NCBI GenBank assembly: GCA_020072585.1
Contig: JAIQGL010000011.1
Location: 124,001-188,000 of the forward strand
Direction of reading: 5' to 3'
Origin: Terriglobia bacterium
Lineage (GTDB): Bacteria; Acidobacteriota; Terriglobia; Terriglobales; Acidobacteriaceae
Length of the DNA stretch: 64,000 nt
The translations under genes and the position numbers were made by a program. Shown here in pieces: positions 23,455-29,134 of the stretch (within the stretch, counting starts at the first letter, position 1; each line of letters starts with the position of its first letter). Below the pieces are notes generated by a model. The model saw nothing but the letters and a program-made list of their open reading frames with translations, was not told where the DNA came from and did no database searches.

Positions 23455-23474
23455 CAAAGCCAATGATAATTCCT

Positions 23475-23651
23475 TATTTCCGTGCTATACTCGCTTTCGC
23501 AATGATGATACGGATTAAATCCATGATGAGACGGCGCGTCAATCGCGTTCGGCCTTCGGGATTTGTCTGTCCGTAATACTCTAAGTTCAGATCCAAATTC
23601 TCGAAGGCTCCGACTAAAAAGTCGGGGCCTTTTGCATTTTGCGGAGGTTTT
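23475..23651 (+). promoter_or_regulatory. Leader of tRNA block 1 with TATACT box and hairpin
   Basis: A TATACT box at 23482-23487 is a good -10 candidate; the -35 is unclear. A leader of ~110 nt begins with GCAATGATGATACG. It ends in a strong hairpin at 23604-23631: GGCTCCGAC pairs with GTCGGGGCC around the loop TAAAAA, followed by TTTT and GCATTTTGCGG. The form is that of a Rho-independent terminator or attenuator, yet it sits 20 bases before the first tRNA. A similar leader and hairpin precede block 2. Confidence 0.6.
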
Positions 23652-23728
23652 TGGCCGGTAGCCAAGCTGGAAAGGCACGTGACTGTTACTCACGCTATGC
23701 GCAGGTTCGAATCCTGCCCGGCCAGCCA
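23652..23728 (+). tRNA. tRNA-Asn(GTT)
   Basis: Acceptor TGGCCGG pairs with CCGGCCA. Anticodon stem CGTGA/TCACG encloses the loop CTGTTAC. T-loop TTCGAAT; discriminator G and encoded CCA. First gene of the array. Confidence 0.93.
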
Positions 23729-23744
23729 GATTTTTGTGAAAAGC

Positions 23745-23820
23745 GGCTCGCTAGTTCAGTAGGAAGAACGCGGCTCTCATAAAGCCGTTGTGGATGGTTC
23801 GAATCCATCGCGAGCCACCA
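23745..23820 (+). tRNA. tRNA-Met(CAT)
   Basis: Acceptor GGCTCGC pairs with GCGAGCC. Stem CGGCT/AGCCG encloses the loop CTCATAA. CCA is encoded. The elongator Met form seems most likely; an Ile2 (lysidine) identity cannot be excluded. Confidence 0.9.
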
Positions 23821-23822
23821 GT

Positions 23823-23912
23823 GGAGGGGCCTCCGGGAGGAGCAGTGCCTTATAAGCACTTCGGCGCCAGATTAGCGCGGCTAGGCAGGTTCGACTCCTG
23901 CACCCTCTACCA
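23823..23912 (+). tRNA. Atypical tRNA with UAU anticodon and long variable arm
   Basis: Acceptor GGAGGGG pairs with ACCCTCT, with a G-U end and a G7-A66 mismatch. Anticodon stem AGTGC/GCACT encloses CTTATAA, anticodon TAT (nominally Ile, AUA). The region between anticodon and T arms is about 24 nt and contains GCGC...GCGC, like a class II variable arm. The D arm is reduced (TCC/GGA), and the bases at 8-9 are CC rather than TA. T arm GCAGG/CCTGC and CCA are normal. Real amino-acid identity uncertain. Confidence 0.6.
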
Positions 23913-23922
23913 AAGATGCTTT

Positions 23923-23998
23923 GCGCCGGTAGTTCAACGGATCAGAACAGTTGGCCTACACCCAACAGATGCGGGTTCAACTCCCGAACGGCGCACCA
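23923..23998 (+). tRNA. tRNA-Val(TAC)
   Basis: Acceptor GCGCCGG pairs with ACGGCGC, with a G7-A66 mismatch. Stem GTTGG/CCAAC encloses CCTACAC. T-loop TTCAACT; CCA is encoded. Confidence 0.88.
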
Positions 23999-23999
23999 G

Positions 24000-24073
24000 G
24001 CAGGATTAGCTCGAAGGTCGAGCCCGCGATCGATAATCGCGAGGTGTTGGTTCGATTCCAACATCCTGCACCA
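24000..24073 (+). tRNA. tRNA-Ile(GAT) with C33
   Basis: Acceptor GCAGGAT pairs with ATCCTGC. Stem CGCGA/TCGCG encloses TCGATAA, so position 33 is C instead of the near-universal U. It begins one base after the preceding CCA plus G. CCA is encoded. Confidence 0.85.
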
Positions 24074-24084
24074 AGTTTGTATGA

Positions 24085-24160
24085 GGGCGTGTGGCTGAAC
24101 GGATCAGGCACTTGACTACGAATCAAGTTCATGTGGGTTCGATTCCCACCGCGCCTTCCA
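24085..24160 (+). tRNA. tRNA-Arg(ACG)
   Basis: Acceptor GGGCGTG pairs with CGCGCCT (two wobbles). Stem CTTGA/TCAAG encloses CTACGAA. Discriminator T, CCA encoded. It reads CGU, CGC and CGA if A34 is deaminated. Confidence 0.92.
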
Positions 24161-24169
24161 GAAGTTCAC

Positions 24170-24246
24170 GGGTGACTGGCAGAGATGGCTGATGCACTCG
24201 CCTCTTAAGCGAGACCAGGCTGGTTCGATTCCAGCGTCACCCACCA
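24170..24246 (+). tRNA. tRNA-Lys(CTT)
   Basis: Acceptor GGGTGAC pairs with GTCACCC. Stem CTCGC/GCGAG encloses CTCTTAA. CCA is encoded. Confidence 0.93.
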
Positions 24247-24252
24247 AGTTTT

Positions 24253-24328
24253 GCGGGATTGGCAGATGCGGCTATGCACTCGCCTTTTAAGCGAGACGAA
24301 GCAGGTTCGATTCCTGCATCCCGCACCA
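24253..24328 (+). tRNA. tRNA-Lys(TTT)
   Basis: Acceptor GCGGGAT pairs with ATCCCGC. Stem CTCGC/GCGAG encloses CTTTTAA. CCA is encoded. The anticodon arm differs from the neighbouring Lys(CTT) at one base only, suggesting local duplication. Confidence 0.93.
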
Positions 24329-24340
24329 GGTTTTATATGA

Positions 24341-24416
24341 GGGCGCTTCATTCAACAGGATCAGGACAGAGTCTTCTAAGCTCTGAATGTCGGTTCGAGT
24401 CCGGCAGCGCCTTCCA
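24341..24416 (+). tRNA. tRNA-Arg(TCT)
   Basis: Acceptor GGGCGCT pairs with AGCGCCT. Stem AGAGT/GCTCT encloses CTTCTAA. CCA is encoded. It reads AGA/AGG. Confidence 0.92.
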
Positions 24417-24422
24417 ACATTT

Positions 24423-24498
24423 GGGGATGTGGTCCAACGGATCAGGGCGCACGGCTTCGAACCGTGAGATCAGAGTTCAATTCTCTGCATCCCTTCCA
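24423..24498 (+). tRNA. tRNA-Arg(TCG)
   Basis: Acceptor GGGGATG pairs with CATCCCT. Stem CACGG/CCGTG encloses CTTCGAA. CCA is encoded. It reads CGA, normally served by ACG in bacteria, so this isoacceptor is unusual. Confidence 0.9.
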
Positions 24499-24505
24499 GT
24501 TCTTT

Positions 24506-24581
24506 GCTCGCGTGGTCTAACGCATGATGACGCTTCGGTCCTAACGAAGAGATCCGGGTTGGATTCCCGGCGCGAGTTCCA
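24506..24581 (+). tRNA. tRNA-Arg(CCT)
   Basis: Acceptor GCTCGCG pairs with CGCGAGT. Stem CTTCG/CGAAG encloses GTCCTAA. T-loop TTGGATT is slightly aberrant. CCA is encoded. Confidence 0.9.
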
Positions 24582-24585
24582 CGCT

Positions 24586-24661
24586 AGGCGGGTAGTGTAA
24601 CGGATGAACACGGCGCCGTCCGAAGGCGCAGATCCGAGTTCAATTCTCGGCCTGCCTGCCA
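24586..24661 (+). tRNA. tRNA-Arg(CCG)
   Basis: Acceptor AGGCGGG pairs with CCTGCCT. Stem GCGCC/GGCGC encloses GTCCGAA. CCA is encoded. It is the last tRNA of block 1; its 3' end is part of the direct repeat that brackets the next gene. Confidence 0.92.
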
Positions 24662-24675
24662 CTTTTTGCTGTTGA
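24651..24675 (+). repeat. Direct repeat, left copy (tRNA-Arg 3' end and flank)
   Basis: Twenty-five bases covering the last 11 bases of tRNA-Arg(CCG) and 14 bases after it. They recur at 26167-26191 with two mismatches. The repeats bracket the 443-codon gene, like attachment-site duplications. Confidence 0.75.
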
Positions 24676-24792
24676 GTCGTTGAGTCATTCGCTTGCCTTA
24701 CTGAAAGAGCGATAATCTATGTATTCACATCCTCGTCTTGCTGCTCGATGTGCAATGAGTCTCTTTGAGTCCAAGGCACCAAGGGAGTTTGT

Positions 24793-26124
24793 ATGGAAGT
24801 GCGTGAAGGCCCACCGCTGTGCAGTCATCTTGCCGATTTCGAGACCACCACGTCAGATCTCTTAAGACCGGGACAAGCTGTCGCACTGTTGAATTTTGCA
24901 GCCCTTTTTCACGAAGTGATCTATTTGCCAGACATAGCACTCGGCGATCACGAGCTGATCATCAAGAGTTTCCATGAAAGAGCTCACAGTGGCTTCTTCC
25001 GCCATTTGAAGGCTCTCATTGAACAAGGAATATTGCGCGTGTTGATGCGGGATAAAGTCGTTGTGGGTGAAGAAATCCGCGTTCCAAGCAACCCGACAAT
25101 ACGCCAAATTTTCGAAGGCTGGCTTTATCGCGACAAAACAAAATGGAAAGGAGAACAGGGATATACCACTCAAATTGATAAAAAGATCCGTTTGGCATAC
25201 TGCCGAGAAATCGACGATCTAATCGCGAGTCCAGGTACAATTCAGCGATACAACCCTGATTTGGTGAAAGCAGGGTTTAGGCGAATAATTCGCGAGCAAC
25301 TTGAGAATGGATCAACGAGGCTTTCACGAAGCGTTGCAGAATTGCCACGAGAGCTCCAACGCAAATATCGCGAAACTCTGAATGACCCTTGGTTTACCAA
25401 TGCTGAATTATGGCGAGTACTCAGAAAAGCAAAAAATGCAGGAGAATCGATTATCTTGCATGGACATGTTAATCAACAGTGTTTTGCCAATCTCGTCGAT
25501 GCTGGACAATCGGCGCAGGACATAACGCCCGAGTCCTTAGCATCTTTCAATCTTGAATTGCAACTACGCCGACCGCTGGCGCCTGAGGCGGACGCGACGC
25601 TTTATCCGCCTAAGAACCTCGATGACCTAATGGAAAGGGCCCCTGTCTTGTTGCCATCACCTAGCATTGAAATGTTTGAATGCCTTTCTGTTGAGAAGGT
25701 CATTGCGCTTCGTCGGAAGGCAAAGAAGGTGTTTGAAATCGCGCGTCGACAAATAGACCCAGCTCAGATGGAAGACGTGCGCAATGACTATCTGCACGCC
25801 CTCGAAGGTTATTGGCAGTACATATTGGAGACGTTCGAGGAAATGGATCCCGAGAAAATGAAGCGGCCAACTCGTCTCGGGCTTTTTATTGAGCAACAGC
25901 TTCCGAGTTTAGACTGGCTATATAAGAAGTTTGGCCGGAGCCTTTTTGCACTGCTTCTTCGAGTCAAGTTCGGTCCTGCAGGTGCCACTATTGGCGAGGC
26001 AGTGAACCATATTGGCATCTACGTCCTTCAGGAGAGAACGCCTCTCAATGAAAGCTTGCGTGGTGCCATTCCACCGGGGCGTTGGTACCGTAGAGGAATT
26101 CTCGGGCTTGATCGTTACAGCTAG
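24793..26124 (+). CDS. Unknown 443-residue protein inserted between tRNA blocks
   Basis: A 443-residue soluble protein from ATG 24793, with AAGGGAG 8 bases upstream. I recognise no family. It is mixed helical and charged, with PGQAVALLNFAALFHEVIYL near the start and a long helical segment at 290-400 (EKVIALRRKAKKVFEIARRQ). There is no signal peptide, membrane segment, Walker or zinc motif. It lies between two blocks of the tRNA array and is bracketed by a 25-bp direct repeat containing a tRNA 3' end, so it looks like an inserted cargo gene. A role in defence or tRNA biology is a guess based on location. Confidence 0.7.
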   Translation: MEVREGPPLCSHLADFETTTSDLLRPGQAVALLNFAALFHEVIYLPDIALGDHELIIKSFHERAHSGFFRHLKALIEQGILRVLMRDKVVVGEEIRVPSNPTIRQIFEGWLYRDKTKWKGEQGYTTQIDKKIRLAYCREIDDLIASPGTIQRYNPDLVKAGFRRIIREQLENGSTRLSRSVAELPRELQRKYRETLNDPWFTNAELWRVLRKAKNAGESIILHGHVNQQCFANLVDAGQSAQDITPESLASFNLELQLRRPLAPEADATLYPPKNLDDLMERAPVLLPSPSIEMFECLSVEKVIALRRKAKKVFEIARRQIDPAQMEDVRNDYLHALEGYWQYILETFEEMDPEKMKRPTRLGLFIEQQLPSLDWLYKKFGRSLFALLLRVKFGPAGATIGEAVNHIGIYVLQERTPLNESLRGAIPPGRWYRRGILGLDRYS

Positions 26125-26166
26125 GAGTGCTGCTTGGTTCGGGTGGTTACGAATTTCTATCTCCGC

Positions 26167-26191
26167 CCTGCCTACCACTTTTTGTTGTTGA
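26167..26191 (+). repeat. Direct repeat, right copy
   Basis: It matches 24651-24675 in 23 of 25 bases, including an ACCA end and ACTTTTTG. The preceding ~20 bases loosely resemble the T arm of the same tRNA, suggesting a decayed tRNA-Arg 3' half. Confidence 0.7.
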
Positions 26192-26412
26192 CGGTGTTAT
26201 AGAACAATGGCAGAGTAGTAATTGAGTTCAGCAATGATACGCAAGCCCCATACCGATTGCTTCGCGACTCCGGCCACGTGCCAAGGAGCCGGGAAAGGTA
26301 CGTTCATGTAACGGGGGCAATCATTTACGCGTGGTTTTTGAGGCCTCCGATGCAAAAATCGGGGGCCTTTTAGTTTTTGCGGGCATTTCAGCATGCGCCG
26401 GCGTCAGGAAGT
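26192..26412 (+). promoter_or_regulatory. Leader of tRNA block 2 with terminator-like hairpin
   Basis: A possible TTGACG box lies near 26188. A leader containing GCAATGATACG follows. The hairpin at 26342-26367 pairs GGCCTCCGAT with ATCGGGGGCC around GCAAAA and is followed by TTTTAGTTTTTGCGG. Hairpin sequence, T-run and the trailing TTTTGCGG match the leader of block 1, so the element is probably functional rather than chance. Confidence 0.6.
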
Positions 26413-26484
26413 GGCAGCGTCGTCTAACGGCCAGGATGCGGTCCTTTCAAGGCTGAGATGGGAGTTCGATTCTCCCCGCTGCTA
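26413..26484 (+). tRNA. tRNA-Glu(TTC)
   Basis: Acceptor GGCAGCG pairs with CGCTGCT. Stem CGGTC/GGCTG (two G-U pairs) encloses CTTTCAA. The three bases after the discriminator are CCG, so CCA is not encoded, unlike most of the array. Confidence 0.9.
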
Positions 26485-26525
26485 CCGGGAGTTTGTGTGT
26501 TTGAACGGACTGATTGGAGGTGTGA

Positions 26526-26599
26526 TGCCGGGTCGTTCAATGGTAGGACGCGAGTCTTTGAAGCTCGTCATGAGCGTTCGATTCGCTCCCCGGCAGCCA
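26526..26599 (+). tRNA. tRNA-Gln(TTG)
   Basis: Acceptor TGCCGGG pairs with CCCGGCA. Stem CGAGT/GCTCG encloses CTTTGAA. Discriminator G, CCA encoded. Confidence 0.92.
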
Positions 26600-26692
26600 G
26601 ATTTGTCGTGAATTGAAAGCGAGGAGTGGTGAAGGCTACGGTTACTTCTCATTTAAAGAAAACACCGTAACTGATTGTTCCCTCCTCATGTT

Positions 26693-26768
26693 TGCGAGGT
26701 CATTTAACTGGATAGGATCACCGGCTCTGACCCGGTTCATGCAGGTTCGAATCCTGCCCTCGCAGCCA
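26693..26768 (+). tRNA. tRNA-Gln(CTG)
   Basis: Acceptor TGCGAGG pairs with CCTCGCA. Stem ACCGG/CCGGT encloses CTCTGAC. CCA is encoded. The 93-base spacer before it can fold (CGGTTAC with GTAACTG) and may be a decayed tRNA. Confidence 0.9.
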
Positions 26769-26778
26769 AATTGAGTAT

Positions 26779-26852
26779 GGTCGCAGAGTCTAGCGGCAGG
26801 ATGCCTGACTGTCTATCAGGAGGGACGGGTTCAACTCCCGTTGCGACCGCCA
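26779..26852 (+). tRNA. tRNA-Asp(GTC)
   Basis: Acceptor GGTCGCA pairs with TGCGACC. Stem CCTGA/TCAGG encloses CTGTCTA. Discriminator G, CCA encoded. Confidence 0.93.
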
Positions 26853-26864
26853 AGTTTTGATGAA

Positions 26865-26939
26865 GCGAGCATGGTATAGCGGCTGGTGCCTCGGGCCTCC
26901 AACCCGATGACGCGAGTTCAACTCTCGCTGCTCGCTCCA
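26865..26939 (+). tRNA. tRNA-Gly(TCC)
   Basis: Acceptor GCGAGCA pairs with TGCTCGC. Stem TCGGG/CCCGA encloses CCTCCAA. Discriminator T, CCA encoded. Confidence 0.93.
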
Positions 26940-26941
26940 AG

Positions 26942-27015
26942 GCGGAGTTCGTATAGGAGCAGTACCCCGGATCGCCAGTCCGGAAGCACGGGTGCAATTC
27001 CCGTACTCCGCTCCA
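26942..27015 (+). tRNA. tRNA-Gly(GCC) with C33
   Basis: Acceptor GCGGAGT pairs with ACTCCGC. Stem CCGGA/TCCGG encloses TCGCCAG; position 33 is C, as in tRNA-Ile(GAT) of block 1. T-loop is TGCAATT. The D arm (GTATAGGAGCAGTAC) is irregular. CCA is encoded. Confidence 0.85.
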
Positions 27016-27023
27016 CAGTTTGA

Positions 27024-27099
27024 GGTGGCGTAGCCAAGACAGAAAGGCGTCTGCCTGCAAAGCAGATCATCGGGAGTGCAATTCTCCCCGCCACCTCCA
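27024..27099 (+). tRNA. tRNA-Cys(GCA)
   Basis: Acceptor GGTGGCG pairs with CGCCACC. Stem TCTGC/GCAGA encloses CTGCAAA. T-loop TGCAATT; CCA is encoded. Confidence 0.92.
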
Positions 27100-27108
27100 G
27101 GGTTTTGT

Positions 27109-27180
27109 GCTGGTGTAGCTCAGTGGGAAGAGCGCGGGCCTCGTAAGTCCGTGATCGGCGTTCGAATCGCCGCGCCAGCT
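27109..27180 (+). tRNA. tRNA-Thr(CGT)
   Basis: Acceptor GCTGGTG pairs with CGCCAGC. Stem CGGGC/GTCCG encloses CTCGTAA. The bases after the discriminator are CCG, so CCA is not encoded. The next tRNA begins three bases later. Confidence 0.9.
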
Positions 27181-27182
27181 CC

Positions 27183-27257
27183 GCTGGTATAGCTCAACGG
27201 GAAGAGCAGGCGCATGGTAAGCGCCCGACCGCAGTTCGAGGCTGCGTGCCAGCTCCA
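27183..27257 (+). tRNA. tRNA-Thr(GGT)
   Basis: Acceptor GCTGGTA pairs with TGCCAGC. Stem GGCGC/GCGCC encloses ATGGTAA. T-loop TTCGAGG; CCA is encoded. Confidence 0.92.
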
Positions 27258-27264
27258 AGGTTTT

Positions 27265-27338
27265 GCTGGTCTAGCACAGTGGCAGTGCAGAGAGCTTGTA
27301 CCTCTCCGACGAGTGTTCGATTCACTCGACCAGCTCCA
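27265..27338 (+). tRNA. tRNA-Thr(TGT)
   Basis: Acceptor GCTGGTC pairs with GACCAGC. Stem GAGAG/CTCTC encloses CTTGTAC. CCA is encoded. Third Thr tRNA in a row. Confidence 0.92.
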
Positions 27339-27347
27339 GATTTCGAT

Positions 27348-27423
27348 GGCGGGATTGGCCGAATGGCTTAGGCACCGGATTGTGGCTCCGGTCACGAGAG
27401 TTCGATTCTCTCATCTCGCCCCA
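27348..27423 (+). tRNA. tRNA-His(GTG)
   Basis: Acceptor GCGGGAT pairs with ATCTCGC, with the His-specific extra G at 27348 opposite discriminator C. Stem CCGGA/TCCGG encloses TTGTGGC. CCA is encoded. Confidence 0.93.
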
Positions 27424-27426
27424 AGT

Positions 27427-27500
27427 GGGCGGTTCGTATAAGGGGATTATCCACGGCCTGCACCCGTGAGATGCGAGTTCGAGTCTCGCACCGTCCACCA
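27427..27500 (+). tRNA. tRNA-Ala(TGC)
   Basis: Acceptor GGGCGGT pairs with ACCGTCC (one G-U). Stem CACGG/CCGTG encloses CCTGCAC. The canonical Ala G3-U70 wobble is present. CCA is encoded. Confidence 0.92.
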
Positions 27501-27505
27501 GATTT

Positions 27506-27579
27506 GGCTCGTGAACTCGACGGTAGAGTGCTGGTCTGAAAAGCCGGTGGACACGGTTCAATTCCGTGACGAGCCACCA
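27506..27579 (+). tRNA. tRNA-Phe(GAA)
   Basis: Acceptor GGCTCGT pairs with ACGAGCC. Stem CTGGT/GCCGG (two wobbles) encloses CTGAAAA. CCA is encoded. Confidence 0.92.
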
Positions 27580-27585
27580 AAGATT

Positions 27586-27664
27586 CGGGGAGTGGCCTAG
27601 CCTGGTTGAAGGCACGTGCCTCGGGCGCACGAGATCGGGAGTTCGAATCTCCCCTCCCCGACCA
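27586..27664 (+). tRNA. tRNA-Pro(CGG)
   Basis: Acceptor CGGGGAG pairs with CTCCCCG. Stem CGTGC/GCACG encloses CTCGGGC. CCA is encoded. It is the last intact tRNA and lies 43 bases before rtcB; a decayed copy follows rtcB. Confidence 0.93.
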
Positions 27665-27706
27665 GAATTAGGTGCAAGGTTCGTTGAGCGCAAAAAGGAA
27701 GAGACG

Positions 27707-28936
27707 ATGACAGACAAAACATACAACGTGATCAAGCTCGAAAACGGCGTACCGATCAAGGCGTGGACCAAGGGAGTCCCGCTGGAAGATGCTGCACGTC
27801 AGCAGCTTCTGAACGTTGCGCAGCTGCCCTTCATCTACAGGTGGGTGGCGGCGATGCCCGACGTGCATTGGGGTATCGGCGCTACTGTGGGCAGCGTGAT
27901 TCCCACGCGCGGGGCGATCATTCCCGCGGCTGTCGGCGTCGACATTGGTTGCGGCATGATGGCAGTAAAGACTTCTCTTCATGCCAACCATCTGCCGGAC
28001 GATCTGCACGGGATCCGCACCGCCATTGAAAAGGCAGTGCCGCACGGGCGAACCGACAACGGCGGTAAGAACGACCGTGGCGCGTGGTCGGACGCTCCCG
28101 CGCATCATCTTGACGTGTGGGCGACGATGGAGCCGGCATACAAGGCGATCATCGACAAGTATCCCAAGCTGAACCATGTGCAGCGCATCAATCACCTGGG
28201 AACGTTGGGAACTGGAAACCACTTCATCGAGGTCTGCCTTGATGAAAACGAGAACGTGTGGTTCCTATTGCACTCGGGATCGCGTGGAGTAGGCAATCGT
28301 TTCGGGACGTTTTTCATCGAGCTGGCCAAGAATGACATGCGCCAGTGGATGATTAACCTGCCGGACCAGGATCTCGCCTATCTGCCGCAGGGCACCGAGC
28401 ACTTCGAGGACTACGTCCGTGCGGTGCACTGGGCACAGGACTATGCACTGGCCAATCGCGATCTGATGATGCGCAACATGATCGCGGCCGTGCAGGGATC
28501 GGGAGAAGTCCCGGCGTTCGAAACCAATGTGGAAGTCGTGAGCTGCCATCACAACTACGTGACCTGGGAGCACCACTATGGCGAGAATGTCCTGATCACG
28601 CGTAAGGGCGCCGTTCGAGCGCGTGAGGGCGACATGGGAATCATTCCCGGCAGCATGGGAGCGCGCTCATACATCGTGCGCGGCAAGGGCAATCCGGAAA
28701 GCTTCATGAGCTGCAGCCATGGAGCGGGACGTGCCATGTCGCGCGCCGAGGCGAAGCGCCGCTTCACACTGGATGACCACGCGAAGGCAACGGCCGGCGT
28801 CGAATGCCGTAAGGACGCGGACGTCATCGACGAAACCCCGATGGCGTACAAGTCCATCGACGCCGTGATGGAAGCGCAGCGCGATCTGGTGGACGTGGTG
28901 CACACTCTTCGCCAGGTGGTCTGCGTGAAGGGATGA
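27707..28936 (+). CDS. rtcB: RNA-splicing ligase RtcB
   Basis: A 409-residue protein from ATG 27707, with AAGGAAGAG just upstream. The RtcB active site is complete: AVGVDIGCGMM (Asp and Cys metal ligands, near residue 79), NHLGTLGTGNHFIE, HHNY near 281, and CSHGAGR (guanylylated His, near 334). RtcB joins 2',3'-cyclic phosphate ends to 5'-OH ends using GTP and Mn2+, and repairs or splices tRNAs. Placement directly after 26 tRNA genes strongly suggests repair of cleaved tRNAs. No archease gene adjoins. Flanking by tRNA-Pro and a degenerate copy hints at insertion. Confidence 0.95.
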   Translation: MTDKTYNVIKLENGVPIKAWTKGVPLEDAARQQLLNVAQLPFIYRWVAAMPDVHWGIGATVGSVIPTRGAIIPAAVGVDIGCGMMAVKTSLHANHLPDDLHGIRTAIEKAVPHGRTDNGGKNDRGAWSDAPAHHLDVWATMEPAYKAIIDKYPKLNHVQRINHLGTLGTGNHFIEVCLDENENVWFLLHSGSRGVGNRFGTFFIELAKNDMRQWMINLPDQDLAYLPQGTEHFEDYVRAVHWAQDYALANRDLMMRNMIAAVQGSGEVPAFETNVEVVSCHHNYVTWEHHYGENVLITRKGAVRAREGDMGIIPGSMGARSYIVRGKGNPESFMSCSHGAGRAMSRAEAKRRFTLDDHAKATAGVECRKDADVIDETPMAYKSIDAVMEAQRDLVDVVHTLRQVVCVKG

Positions 28937-29012
28937 ACAGGGGAGGGTTCGAAAGGCCCTCTCCAACAATCCTGGTGTAGGGTAGCGGCCACGCCTGATT
29001 CGCCAACAAGCT

Positions 29013-29087
29013 CGGGAGTGGCTTAGCTTGGTTGAAGGCGCGTGCTTCGGGGGAAGATTGGGAGTCCGAATCTCCGCTTCCCGACCA
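29013..29087 (+). pseudogene. Degenerate tRNA-Pro copy
   Basis: The sequence aligns along its length with tRNA-Pro(CGG) at 27586-27664, sharing GGTTGAAGGC and the CCCGACCA end. Bases are lost in the anticodon arm, so the stem CGTGC no longer has a partner, and the T stem and acceptor carry mismatches. About 40 bases upstream, GGTGTAGGGTAGCGGCCACG resembles a further tRNA 5' half. Confidence 0.7.
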
Positions 29088-29134
29088 GATCGTTAGCTAA
29101 GTCTAGTTTTTGTCACTAGCAGAAGAGGAATGCC

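Follow-up and report, generated by a model that had tools for sequence, protein, structure and literature searches.

A tRNA array with an rtcB gene in a Terriglobia bacterium, headed by short leader reading frames that match the tRNAs of their own operons

The purpose of the large extra tRNA sets in mobile elements, phages and some chromosomes is a long-standing question, and it is raised again by an array of tRNA genes with an RtcB RNA ligase gene in a Terriglobia bacterium (assembly GCA_020072585.1, contig JAIQGL010000011.1, positions 124,001 to 188,000; this whole stretch of 64,000 nucleotides is called the window). A preliminary description, made from the sequence alone, had placed 26 tRNA genes and the ligase gene at 23652-29087 and had noted that nearly all of the tRNA genes encode CCA. 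With ARAGORN, 25 tRNA genes were detected between 23652 and 27664, every one of them on the + strand, and Rfam was found to detect 25 canonical tRNAs in the array with 32.5-62.9 bits against a gathering score of 29; tRNA-Phe(GAA) at 27506 was matched by Rfam and missed by ARAGORN. The two programs together gave 26 tRNA genes within 4.0 kb, which is the density of a tRNA array unit, and with the PF01139 match of the ligase the described content was confirmed. CCA was read from the sequence in 24 of the 26 genes, the exceptions being Glu(UUC) and Thr(CGU). The start of the described span and the array within it were retained, whereas its end takes in a broken tail, made up of a tRNA-Pro(UGG) fragment and a decayed tRNA-Pro(CGG)-like copy (Table 1).

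Is the array the ordinary tRNA complement of its genome? In the genome of the window (6.9 Mb, 74 contigs), 150 of 252 candidates were scored and at least 70 tRNA matches were found, 24 in the array and 46 outside, two array genes being missing among the matches listed. Of the 46 outside matches, 45 make up an ordinary complement that serves all 20 amino acids, and the remaining one, on contig 74, duplicates the tRNA-Asn of the array. The complement elsewhere for which the preliminary description had suggested a search was thus found, and the array as the only tRNA complement of the genome was ruled out by these 45 tRNAs. The identity to the ordinary tRNA with the same anticodon was 0.60-0.76 in 22 of the 26 array tRNAs; for Asn and Cys this comparison was obscured by copies of the array type on contigs 74 and 58, and the anticodons UAU and UCG had no counterpart in the ordinary set. 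The copy on contig 74 (L065:4830-5317) repeats part of the beginning of operon 1, with leader 1 intact and only one tRNA detected by ARAGORN, and the copy on contig 58 (L066:18612-18687) was a lone array-type tRNA-Cys.

How might such a second set be controlled? The array appears to be organised in operons, with predicted boundaries, each headed by a short open reading frame (ORF) and mostly by an intrinsic terminator before the first tRNA. It is from these leader ORFs, overlooked in the preliminary description, that the logic of the unit follows. Operon 2 of the window was found to contain tRNAs for Glu, Gln, Asp, Gly, Cys, Thr, His, Ala, Phe and Pro. In fuller window-type arrays, tRNA-Trp and tRNA-Pro(UGG) were added, the latter about 37 bp 3′ of rtcB, followed by the presence of a third operon on the other strand with Leu(CAA), Ser(GCU), Tyr and Leu(UAG) tRNAs, and with Ser(UGA) in L060 and L069 (related loci are given by their labels). 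The window had no Trp gene between Asp and Gly, and its Pro(UGG) gene was truncated at 28992; a search of the rest of its genome (assembly 96.8% complete) gave no operon 3. Between them, operons 1 and 2 and the operon 3 of the relatives serve all 20 amino acids, each operon having a group that it shares with no other, namely N/M/I/V/R/K (operon 1), E/Q/D/W/G/C/T/H/A/F/P (operon 2) and L/S/Y (operon 3).

Table 1. Features of the tRNA array and its control regions, in positions of the window
Feature	Position	Strand	Basis or remark
Candidate promoter of operon 1: ATGATA, 17 nt, TATACT, with TG before the -10 box	23463..23491	+	9/12 consensus positions
Leader ORF 1, MMIRIKSMMRRRVNRVRPSGFVCP*	23502..23576	+	All operon 1 amino acids (N, M, I, V, R, K); joint p 0.0005 against random short ORFs
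Possible antiterminator 5′ strand GGCCUUCGGGA, in last codons of leader ORF 1	23551..23561	+	Pairs with 23599-23609; p 0.002 against shuffles
Intrinsic terminator-like hairpin 1, before first tRNA	23603..23632	+	100% of cells paired, 6 sequences
Operon 1 tRNAs: Asn GUU, Met CAU, allo-tRNA UAU, Val UAC, Ile GAU, Arg ACG, Lys CUU, Lys UUU, Arg UCU, Arg UCG, Arg CCU, Arg CCG	23652..24661	+	ARAGORN, Rfam
Long-variable-arm tRNA-Sec-like tRNA, anticodon UAU (allo-tRNA-UAU type)	23820..23912	+	Rfam, sequence reading; type in PMC7609411 (accessible part)
443-amino-acid ORF of no known family, inserted between operons 1 and 2	24793..26124	+	
Leader ORF 2, MIRKPHTDCFATPATCQGAGKGTFM*	26234..26311	+	9/10 operon 2 amino acids (all but Glu); joint p 0.001
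Intrinsic terminator-like hairpin 2, before tRNA-Glu gene	26340..26369	+	100% of cells paired, 4 sequences; one pair with two-sided change
Operon 2 tRNAs: Glu UUC, Gln UUG, Gln CUG, Asp GUC, Gly UCC, Gly GCC, Cys GCA, Thr CGU, Thr GGU, Thr UGU, His GUG, Ala UGC, Phe GAA, Pro CGG	26413..27664	+	ARAGORN, Rfam
rtcB, 409 amino acids, 3′-phosphate RNA ligase	27707..28936	+	PF01139 at 1.5e-130
5′ fragment of tRNA-Pro(UGG) gene	28971..28992	+	Intact per ARAGORN in L060, L067, L068, L069, L279
Decayed tRNA-Pro(CGG)-like copy	29014..29089	+	86% to Pro(CGG) gene of L060

The amino acids of each leader were found to follow those of its own operon from array to array. Leader 1 was also present in L065, L067, L279, L283 and L285. 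A Leu/Ser/Tyr-rich leader of operon 3 was predicted beforehand and then confirmed on reading, as MKRLLQLRSSLRLSPSRLSY in L068 with close versions in L060, L067, L069 and L279. In L286, tRNA-Cys was grouped with Leu/Ser/Tyr and the leader MKKLLSILCSFDCLSSRYCSYLSL was found to include Cys, and in L338, Asp and Glu tRNAs were grouped with Leu/Ser/Tyr and the leader VKNLFKSYLSESLSDLLGMEGCG was found to include Asp and Glu. The Trp/Asp/Met/Ile/Lys/Arg/Glu/Val/Gly operon of L288 was headed by the leader MKHLMEQIVVDNIPETWMRRSGMRKDVRVREGAVSV. A Trp codon in leader 2 and a tRNA-Trp gene were present together in L060, L067 and L279 and both absent from the window; the tRNA-Trp of L060, with the loop CCCCAAA, was missed by ARAGORN and read by eye. 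The in-set leader codons were mostly decodable by the anticodons of the same operon (in leader 1, 13/16 by strict wobble and 16/16 with U34 superwobble), the weakest fit among the 12 rows tested being 12/17 in operon A of L286. Between orthologues of leader 2 the changes were found mainly at the third position (2, 0, 7 and 3, 1, 10 changes at positions 1, 2 and 3 in two pairs), and the insertions and deletions were in frame.

The match was compared with a background of 2850 random short ORFs of the array and related loci, of which 1006-1961 were length-matched per leader. The joint p for coverage of operon amino acids and share of in-set residues was 0.0005-0.015 in each of the 12 leader rows; coverage was complete in 11 of them and was 9/10 in leader 2 of the window. 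Fisher's combination over 10 leaders gave 8.7e-18, and 6.6e-12 or 1.7e-9 when every p was raised 5 or 10 times to allow for the choice of ORF; II-B of L288 and I-2 of L067, homologues of rows included, were left out of the combined p. Operon A of L287, with only 3 tRNAs detected, did not enter the statistics, and operon B of L287 and further orthologous leaders 1-3 were left out as homologues of tested rows. The leader regions contained 1-4 sense ORFs, leader included, and the leader was first by in-set share in 11/12. The pairing of leaders with operons was best in the true order in 4/4 arrays (chance 1/432). The operon sets used in these counts rest on ARAGORN calls, some of them doubtful, such as Ala(AGC) in L286, and on the reading of operon boundaries. 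Leader ORFs with diagnostic codons, as in an attenuator, were thus found.

The attenuators of amino-acid operons (trp, his, ilv, thr) contain a short leader ORF with diagnostic codons, an antiterminator near its end and an intrinsic terminator before the first gene. The array was found to resemble them in the layout of leader ORF, possible antiterminator and terminator, whereas its products are tRNAs instead of biosynthetic enzymes, and up to 11 amino acids are listed, once or a few times each, matching its own tRNAs. Of 25 leader rows, 18 had a terminator starting 25-43 nt past the leader stop, those of window leaders 1 and 2 among them. All 18 rows were found to contain a possible antiterminator strand near the ORF end, pairing with or beside the 5′ arm of the terminator, for example GGCCUUCGGGA with UCUCGAAGGCU in leader 1, and Fisher's combination against shuffles gave 2.3e-5 over 11 rows, not all independent. 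The TGCTATACT block at the operon 1 promoter was invariant in 6/6 aligned leaders. A compensatory change in the leader 1 antiterminator was considered and dropped after counting; the helix register was found to shift in L067 and L279.

What would the ligase contribute? The start codon of rtcB at 27707 was found 42 bases past tRNA-Pro(CGG). The protein contained a full-length PF01139 domain with the metal-binding and guanylate-accepting residues, one Asp, one Cys and four His, which are taken to have these roles as in known RtcB structures. The gene is presumably under leader 2 as well because it comes after the operon 2 tRNAs on the same strand. An rtcB gene inside the array was found in six window-type loci, namely the window, L060, L067, L068, L069 and L279. 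In L067, L068 and L069, the RtcB was 93% identical and the tRNA order of the window was present around rtcB in the examined stretch, as it was in L060 of the same-genus genome G001; the tRNA order of these four loci differed from that of the window in the Arg genes and in a few gains and losses. A class-wide DNA search of 399 genomes added L279 and the partial arrays L281, L283 and L285 and led to the non-orthologous arrays L286, L287 and L288, followed by the non-orthologous L338 in a later search; among 14 candidate regions, 7 contained arrays or parts of arrays, and L280, L282, L284 and L289-L292 contained 0-4 tRNAs. A second RtcB subfamily, 30-34% identical to the window RtcB, was found at three non-orthologous arrays: in L286 it sits between operon B tRNAs with a longest open stretch of 269 amino acids, and in L287 and L338 it adjoins the array.

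Further repair genes were found to accompany some of the arrays. Hen1 and Pnkp genes were present past tRNA-Pro(UGG) in L069:2434-6374, L279:10242-16084 and L281:2814-7999, with two RlaP genes each in L279 and L281, and a Ro60/TROVE gene was present in L286; Pnkp and Hen1 had no match in the window, which in itself does not hold that repair system. Operon 3 was located beyond the Hen1/Pnkp genes in L069 and L279, and the examined stretch of L281 ends before it. The Pnkp/Hen1/RlaP, RtcB and Ro60 families mend or handle damaged RNA. In the anticodon loop, U33 was found to be replaced by C33 in 5 of the 26 array tRNAs of the window versus none of the 45 ordinary tRNAs (p 0.005); the 11 other array loci that were counted each had one C33 tRNA or more. 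U33 lies at or beside the cut site of several anticodon nucleases, and C33 may help the spare tRNAs to evade them; the contrast fits anticodon nucleases as the threat that such tRNAs would face. RtcB joins 2′,3′-cyclic-phosphate or 3′-phosphate ends to 5′-OH ends, whereas PIN nucleases leave 5′-phosphate and 3′-OH ends, and VapC is a poor fit for RtcB because of this difference. The earlier proposal of a tRNA replacement and repair module is well supported by the second set beside the ordinary one, the rtcB gene in six orthologous arrays, the second RtcB subfamily at three others and the Pnkp/Hen1/RlaP or Ro60 genes in some arrays, with anticodon nucleases as its presumed target.

Taken together, the array is quite probably an inducible island of tRNA replacement and repair, in which a diverged second tRNA set would be held in separately controlled operons, with the switching and the nuclease as its predicted parts. 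This reading draws on the extra set, the leaders and their match, the terminator hairpins of most operons, the rtcB gene in the array and the repair genes of relatives, all of them read from sequence. The anatomy is that of ribosome-mediated attenuation, with the twist that each leader lists the tRNAs of its own operon. RNA polymerase would initiate at each operon and transcribe a leader ORF that calls for (almost) every amino acid served by the operon. With the host tRNAs intact, the translating ribosome would reach the stop codon and cover the antiterminator strand, the terminator would form and the tRNAs would remain silent. With any listed tRNA depleted, for example by an anticodon nuclease, the ribosome would stall upstream, the antiterminator would form and the polymerase would read through the tRNAs and, in operon 2, rtcB. 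The spare tRNAs would then accumulate until the leader is decoded again and the operon closes, and the match of leader and operon would be explained by this feedback loop, since the spare tRNAs restore leader decoding. RtcB, together with Pnkp/Hen1/RlaP or Ro60 in some arrays, would mend the cut RNAs. Since repair genes and loop changes accompany the array, the most likely natural trigger would be that toxins or immune nucleases cut the host tRNAs; starvation or antibiotics would also act on the leader switch. With moderate confidence, the leader peptides can be regarded as inventories, by which every tRNA that the operon can supply would be tested codon by codon and the operon opened if any is missing, giving a near-complete, self-sensing and self-limiting backup with an RNA-repair kit, that is, a movable, spreading island that would act as a homeostat when toxins or immune systems cut tRNAs.

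A number of observations weigh against this reading. The leaders outside the window-type arrays were chosen with the idea known, and those of types II and III may partly share ancestry; in operon B of L286, one antisense ORF was slightly above the longest form of the leader in in-set share. The leaders were found to contain out-of-set residues, such as Arg in leader 3, and leader 2 of the window lacks Glu, and no clear third-position excess was found between orthologues of leaders 1 and 3. By eye, nothing comparable to these leaders was seen in the 4-tRNA array L335, in the M. avium plasmid array or in the stretch upstream of the 29-tRNA viral array L155. In 7 of 25 rows the script detected no terminator past the ORF, namely operon 3 of five window-type loci, operon A of L286 and operon B of L338; the window-type operon 3 contained a hairpin at the ORF end with no T-run, and operon A of L286 runs directly into tRNA-Cys, and those operons would therefore be controlled otherwise or not at all. 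The best antiterminator strand had no overlap with the terminator arm in 2/18 rows, its p was above 0.05 in 7/11 rows taken singly, and no pair of the leader 1 antiterminator was changed on both sides in 6 sequences. Promoter-like sites (3 versus 3.2 expected) and terminator-like sites (4 versus 5.6 in shuffles) showed no excess in the region, so that the promoter and terminator elements rest on position and conservation. No rtcB was seen in the examined stretch of the partial orthologous array L281 or of the array L288, and close RtcB relatives were located away from arrays in L061, L062, L280, L282 and L284; L062 shares its contig with L070, at which a single tRNA(UAU) precedes rtcB by 53 bp.

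The closest known system was found in Anabaena sp. PCC 7120, whose trn operon likewise contains 26 tRNA genes apart from the housekeeping set, in that case on a plasmid, and is normally silent and induced by translational stress, including antibiotics that target translation (PMC10272220, accessible part). It raises the alternative of a general translation-stress operon, in which any slowing of the ribosome by antibiotic or starvation would induce the array, the spare tRNAs would aid stressed translation and nucleases would not be the point. A leader-peptide switch would indeed respond to amino-acid starvation or to some ribosome inhibitors too, and the Anabaena repressor TrcR controls rtcB as well as the trn operon (same part of PMC10272220). 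A general stalling sensor, however, needs no match of leader and operon residues, whereas the match is strong and co-varies between arrays, and the RNA-repair genes beside the tRNAs point to RNA damage; this alternative is considered unlikely. Anabaena also differs in that its control is by a DNA-binding repressor and its rtcB is a separate chromosomal gene, and the words leader and attenuat- are absent from PMC10272220.

An equally slight chance is given to the array as counter-defence cargo of a mobile element, which would let an incoming plasmid, integrative and conjugative element or phage survive tRNA-cutting immunity, with constitutive or phage-like expression and irrelevant leaders. The alignable unit was found to start near 23480, about 170 bases 5′ of the first tRNA, and homology between the window and L060, L067, L068 and L069 was confined to the array except for one 277-bp match in L060 some 27 kb away. 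Because these flanks do not match, the array unit appears to have moved, or its surroundings to have been reshuffled. A TrbI-type conjugation gene about 3 kb 5′ of the array in L067 fits such cargo, as does the idea, already in print, that phage tRNAs evade tRNA-cutting nucleases of host defence (PMC10264068, accessible part), and a tRNA was present within 300 bp at 24/80 viral RtcB loci. The RtcB search covered the best 80 bacterial loci among the matches listed, and the closest named records among them were Acidobacteriota, one being Candidatus Sulfotelmatobacter of the class Terriglobia. In a quick tree, five array RtcBs formed one group (support 99) within 25 bacterial RtcBs (support 98), mostly of Acidobacteriota and Nitrospirota and not with the viral ones, which argues against such cargo, and a viral origin of the window rtcB was found to be unsupported. 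The leader match is left unexplained by mobile cargo. Spread by mobile elements is compatible with an inducible replacement and repair island, and the two differ on control and beneficiary only.

The array tRNAs could also be decaying or non-canonical, allo-tRNA-like molecules that serve as regulatory or mistranslating RNAs and not as a spare set, which is very unlikely. Their Rfam scores were below those of most host tRNAs, and C33 loops and an allo-tRNA-UAU were present among them. Against decay, the identity to same-anticodon tRNAs of four related arrays was at least 0.90 in 48/58 comparisons, and key identity elements such as G3:U70 in Ala and G-1:C73 in His were read from the sequence as kept. 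The UAU gene was called Ile(UAU) by ARAGORN and tRNA-Sec-like by Rfam, at 31.1 bits and below the family cut-off of 47; a tRNA-Sec-like cloverleaf with a long variable arm and a non-Sec anticodon places it with the allo-tRNAs of the UAU type, its geometry being either 8/4 or 9/3. tRNA-Sec-like tRNAs with anticodon UAU are known as allo-tRNAs in Acidobacteria (Mukai et al. 2017, via the accessible part of the review PMC7609411), and by the same part of that review, the allo-tRNA-UAU types are inactive in E. coli and irregular tRNA polycistrons of soil bacteria are seen in soil metatranscriptomes. In contrast to the reviewed cases, the UAU tRNA of the array belongs to a near-complete set accompanied by leaders and rtcB. 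Although the anticodons UAU and UCG are added to the host set by the array, a codon-usage supplement for codons poorly read by the host can hardly be meant, as 24 of the 26 anticodons duplicate the host set and near-complete diverged sets are retained.

Among the compared systems, the mycobacterial tRNA array units of plasmids and phages also contain extra near-complete tRNA sets with horizontal spread and often HNH genes (PMC5966550, PMC12803027, accessible parts of both); by word counts, RtcB and leader are unmentioned in PMC5966550 and RtcB is unmentioned in PMC12803027. Backup tRNA islands are thus already known, and the new part appears to be the self-referring attenuator control. The Pnkp/Hen1/RlaP and RtcB repair systems share their protein families with the arrays L069, L279 and L281, whereas in the arrays these are joined to spare tRNA genes and leader-headed operons. 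Among the titles listed in a literature search, none concerned leader-peptide or attenuator control of tRNA genes or operons, most subscription papers being outside its reach, and leader-peptide control of tRNA genes is likewise not described in the cited passages on the compared systems. Should the reading be true, ribosome-mediated attenuation would be extended from amino-acid synthesis to tRNA genes and backup tRNAs would be tied to RNA repair. As the leader appears to name the trigger of its own operon, the question of purpose becomes directly testable with reporter fusions. The agreement of leader composition with operon composition would be a sequence signature for finding such systems, which possibly offer a ready-made biosensor for tRNA cleavage.

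Several smaller features were recorded. The UAU tRNA was found to have a class II shape, yet it would decode the Ile codon AUA, and by eye its homologue in L067 contained an anticodon-stem pair altered on both sides. Leu tRNAs of 77-78 nt, without the usual long variable arm, were present in L067 (13160-13236, 13543-13620), L060 (6644-6720, 7026-7103) and L069 (7327-7403, 7712-7789). An HNH nuclease gene of one family was found in the Asn/Gln/Gly operon of type II and III arrays (L286:4883-5383, L287:7161-7649, L288:4182-4685, L338:6081-6569 and L342). An HNH nuclease gene is also up in the Anabaena deletion mutant (PMC10272220, accessible part), and an HNH-like gene was visible by eye in the M. 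avium plasmid array, where no leader with a terminator was evident.

A general rule that RtcB adjoins tRNAs was found to be unsupported, with any ARAGORN tRNA in the examined stretch at 18/80 genome loci and 38/80 viral loci, and with a tRNA within 300 bp at 1/22 cultured-phage rtcB loci (hand-picked from 645 records, 1.5 kb each side). In the viral contigs L147-L226, tRNA-Pro(UGG) was found to adjoin rtcB, on either side, in 13 of the 18 dereplicated clusters (of 65) having a tRNA within 300 bp; it was present among 13/34 near versus 5/104 far tRNAs (Fisher 6e-6), and the label of this neighbour required 12 changes on the RtcB tree versus a shuffled mean of 14.5. The same neighbour was not seen in the 22 cultured-phage loci. 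The Acinetobacter phage record L227 contained rtcR, rtcB and rtcA together.

The 443-amino-acid ORF between operons 1 and 2 had no Pfam family and no relatives in the 28 other loci searched. It was flanked by a 28-bp repeat of the 3′ end of tRNA-Arg(CCG), at about 24648-24675 and 26164-26191. ORFs of 413 and 211 amino acids were present between the same operons in L067, followed by a ThiF/JAB protein in that position in L279. For three proteins tried from the region 1951-23463, 5′ of the array, PADLOC gave no match. This region was found to be defence-island-like, with two AlbA/Schlafen proteins, a type I methylase with specificity subunits, a RES-domain protein, a REase-ARP, a tyrosine recombinase and a RecD-like helicase.

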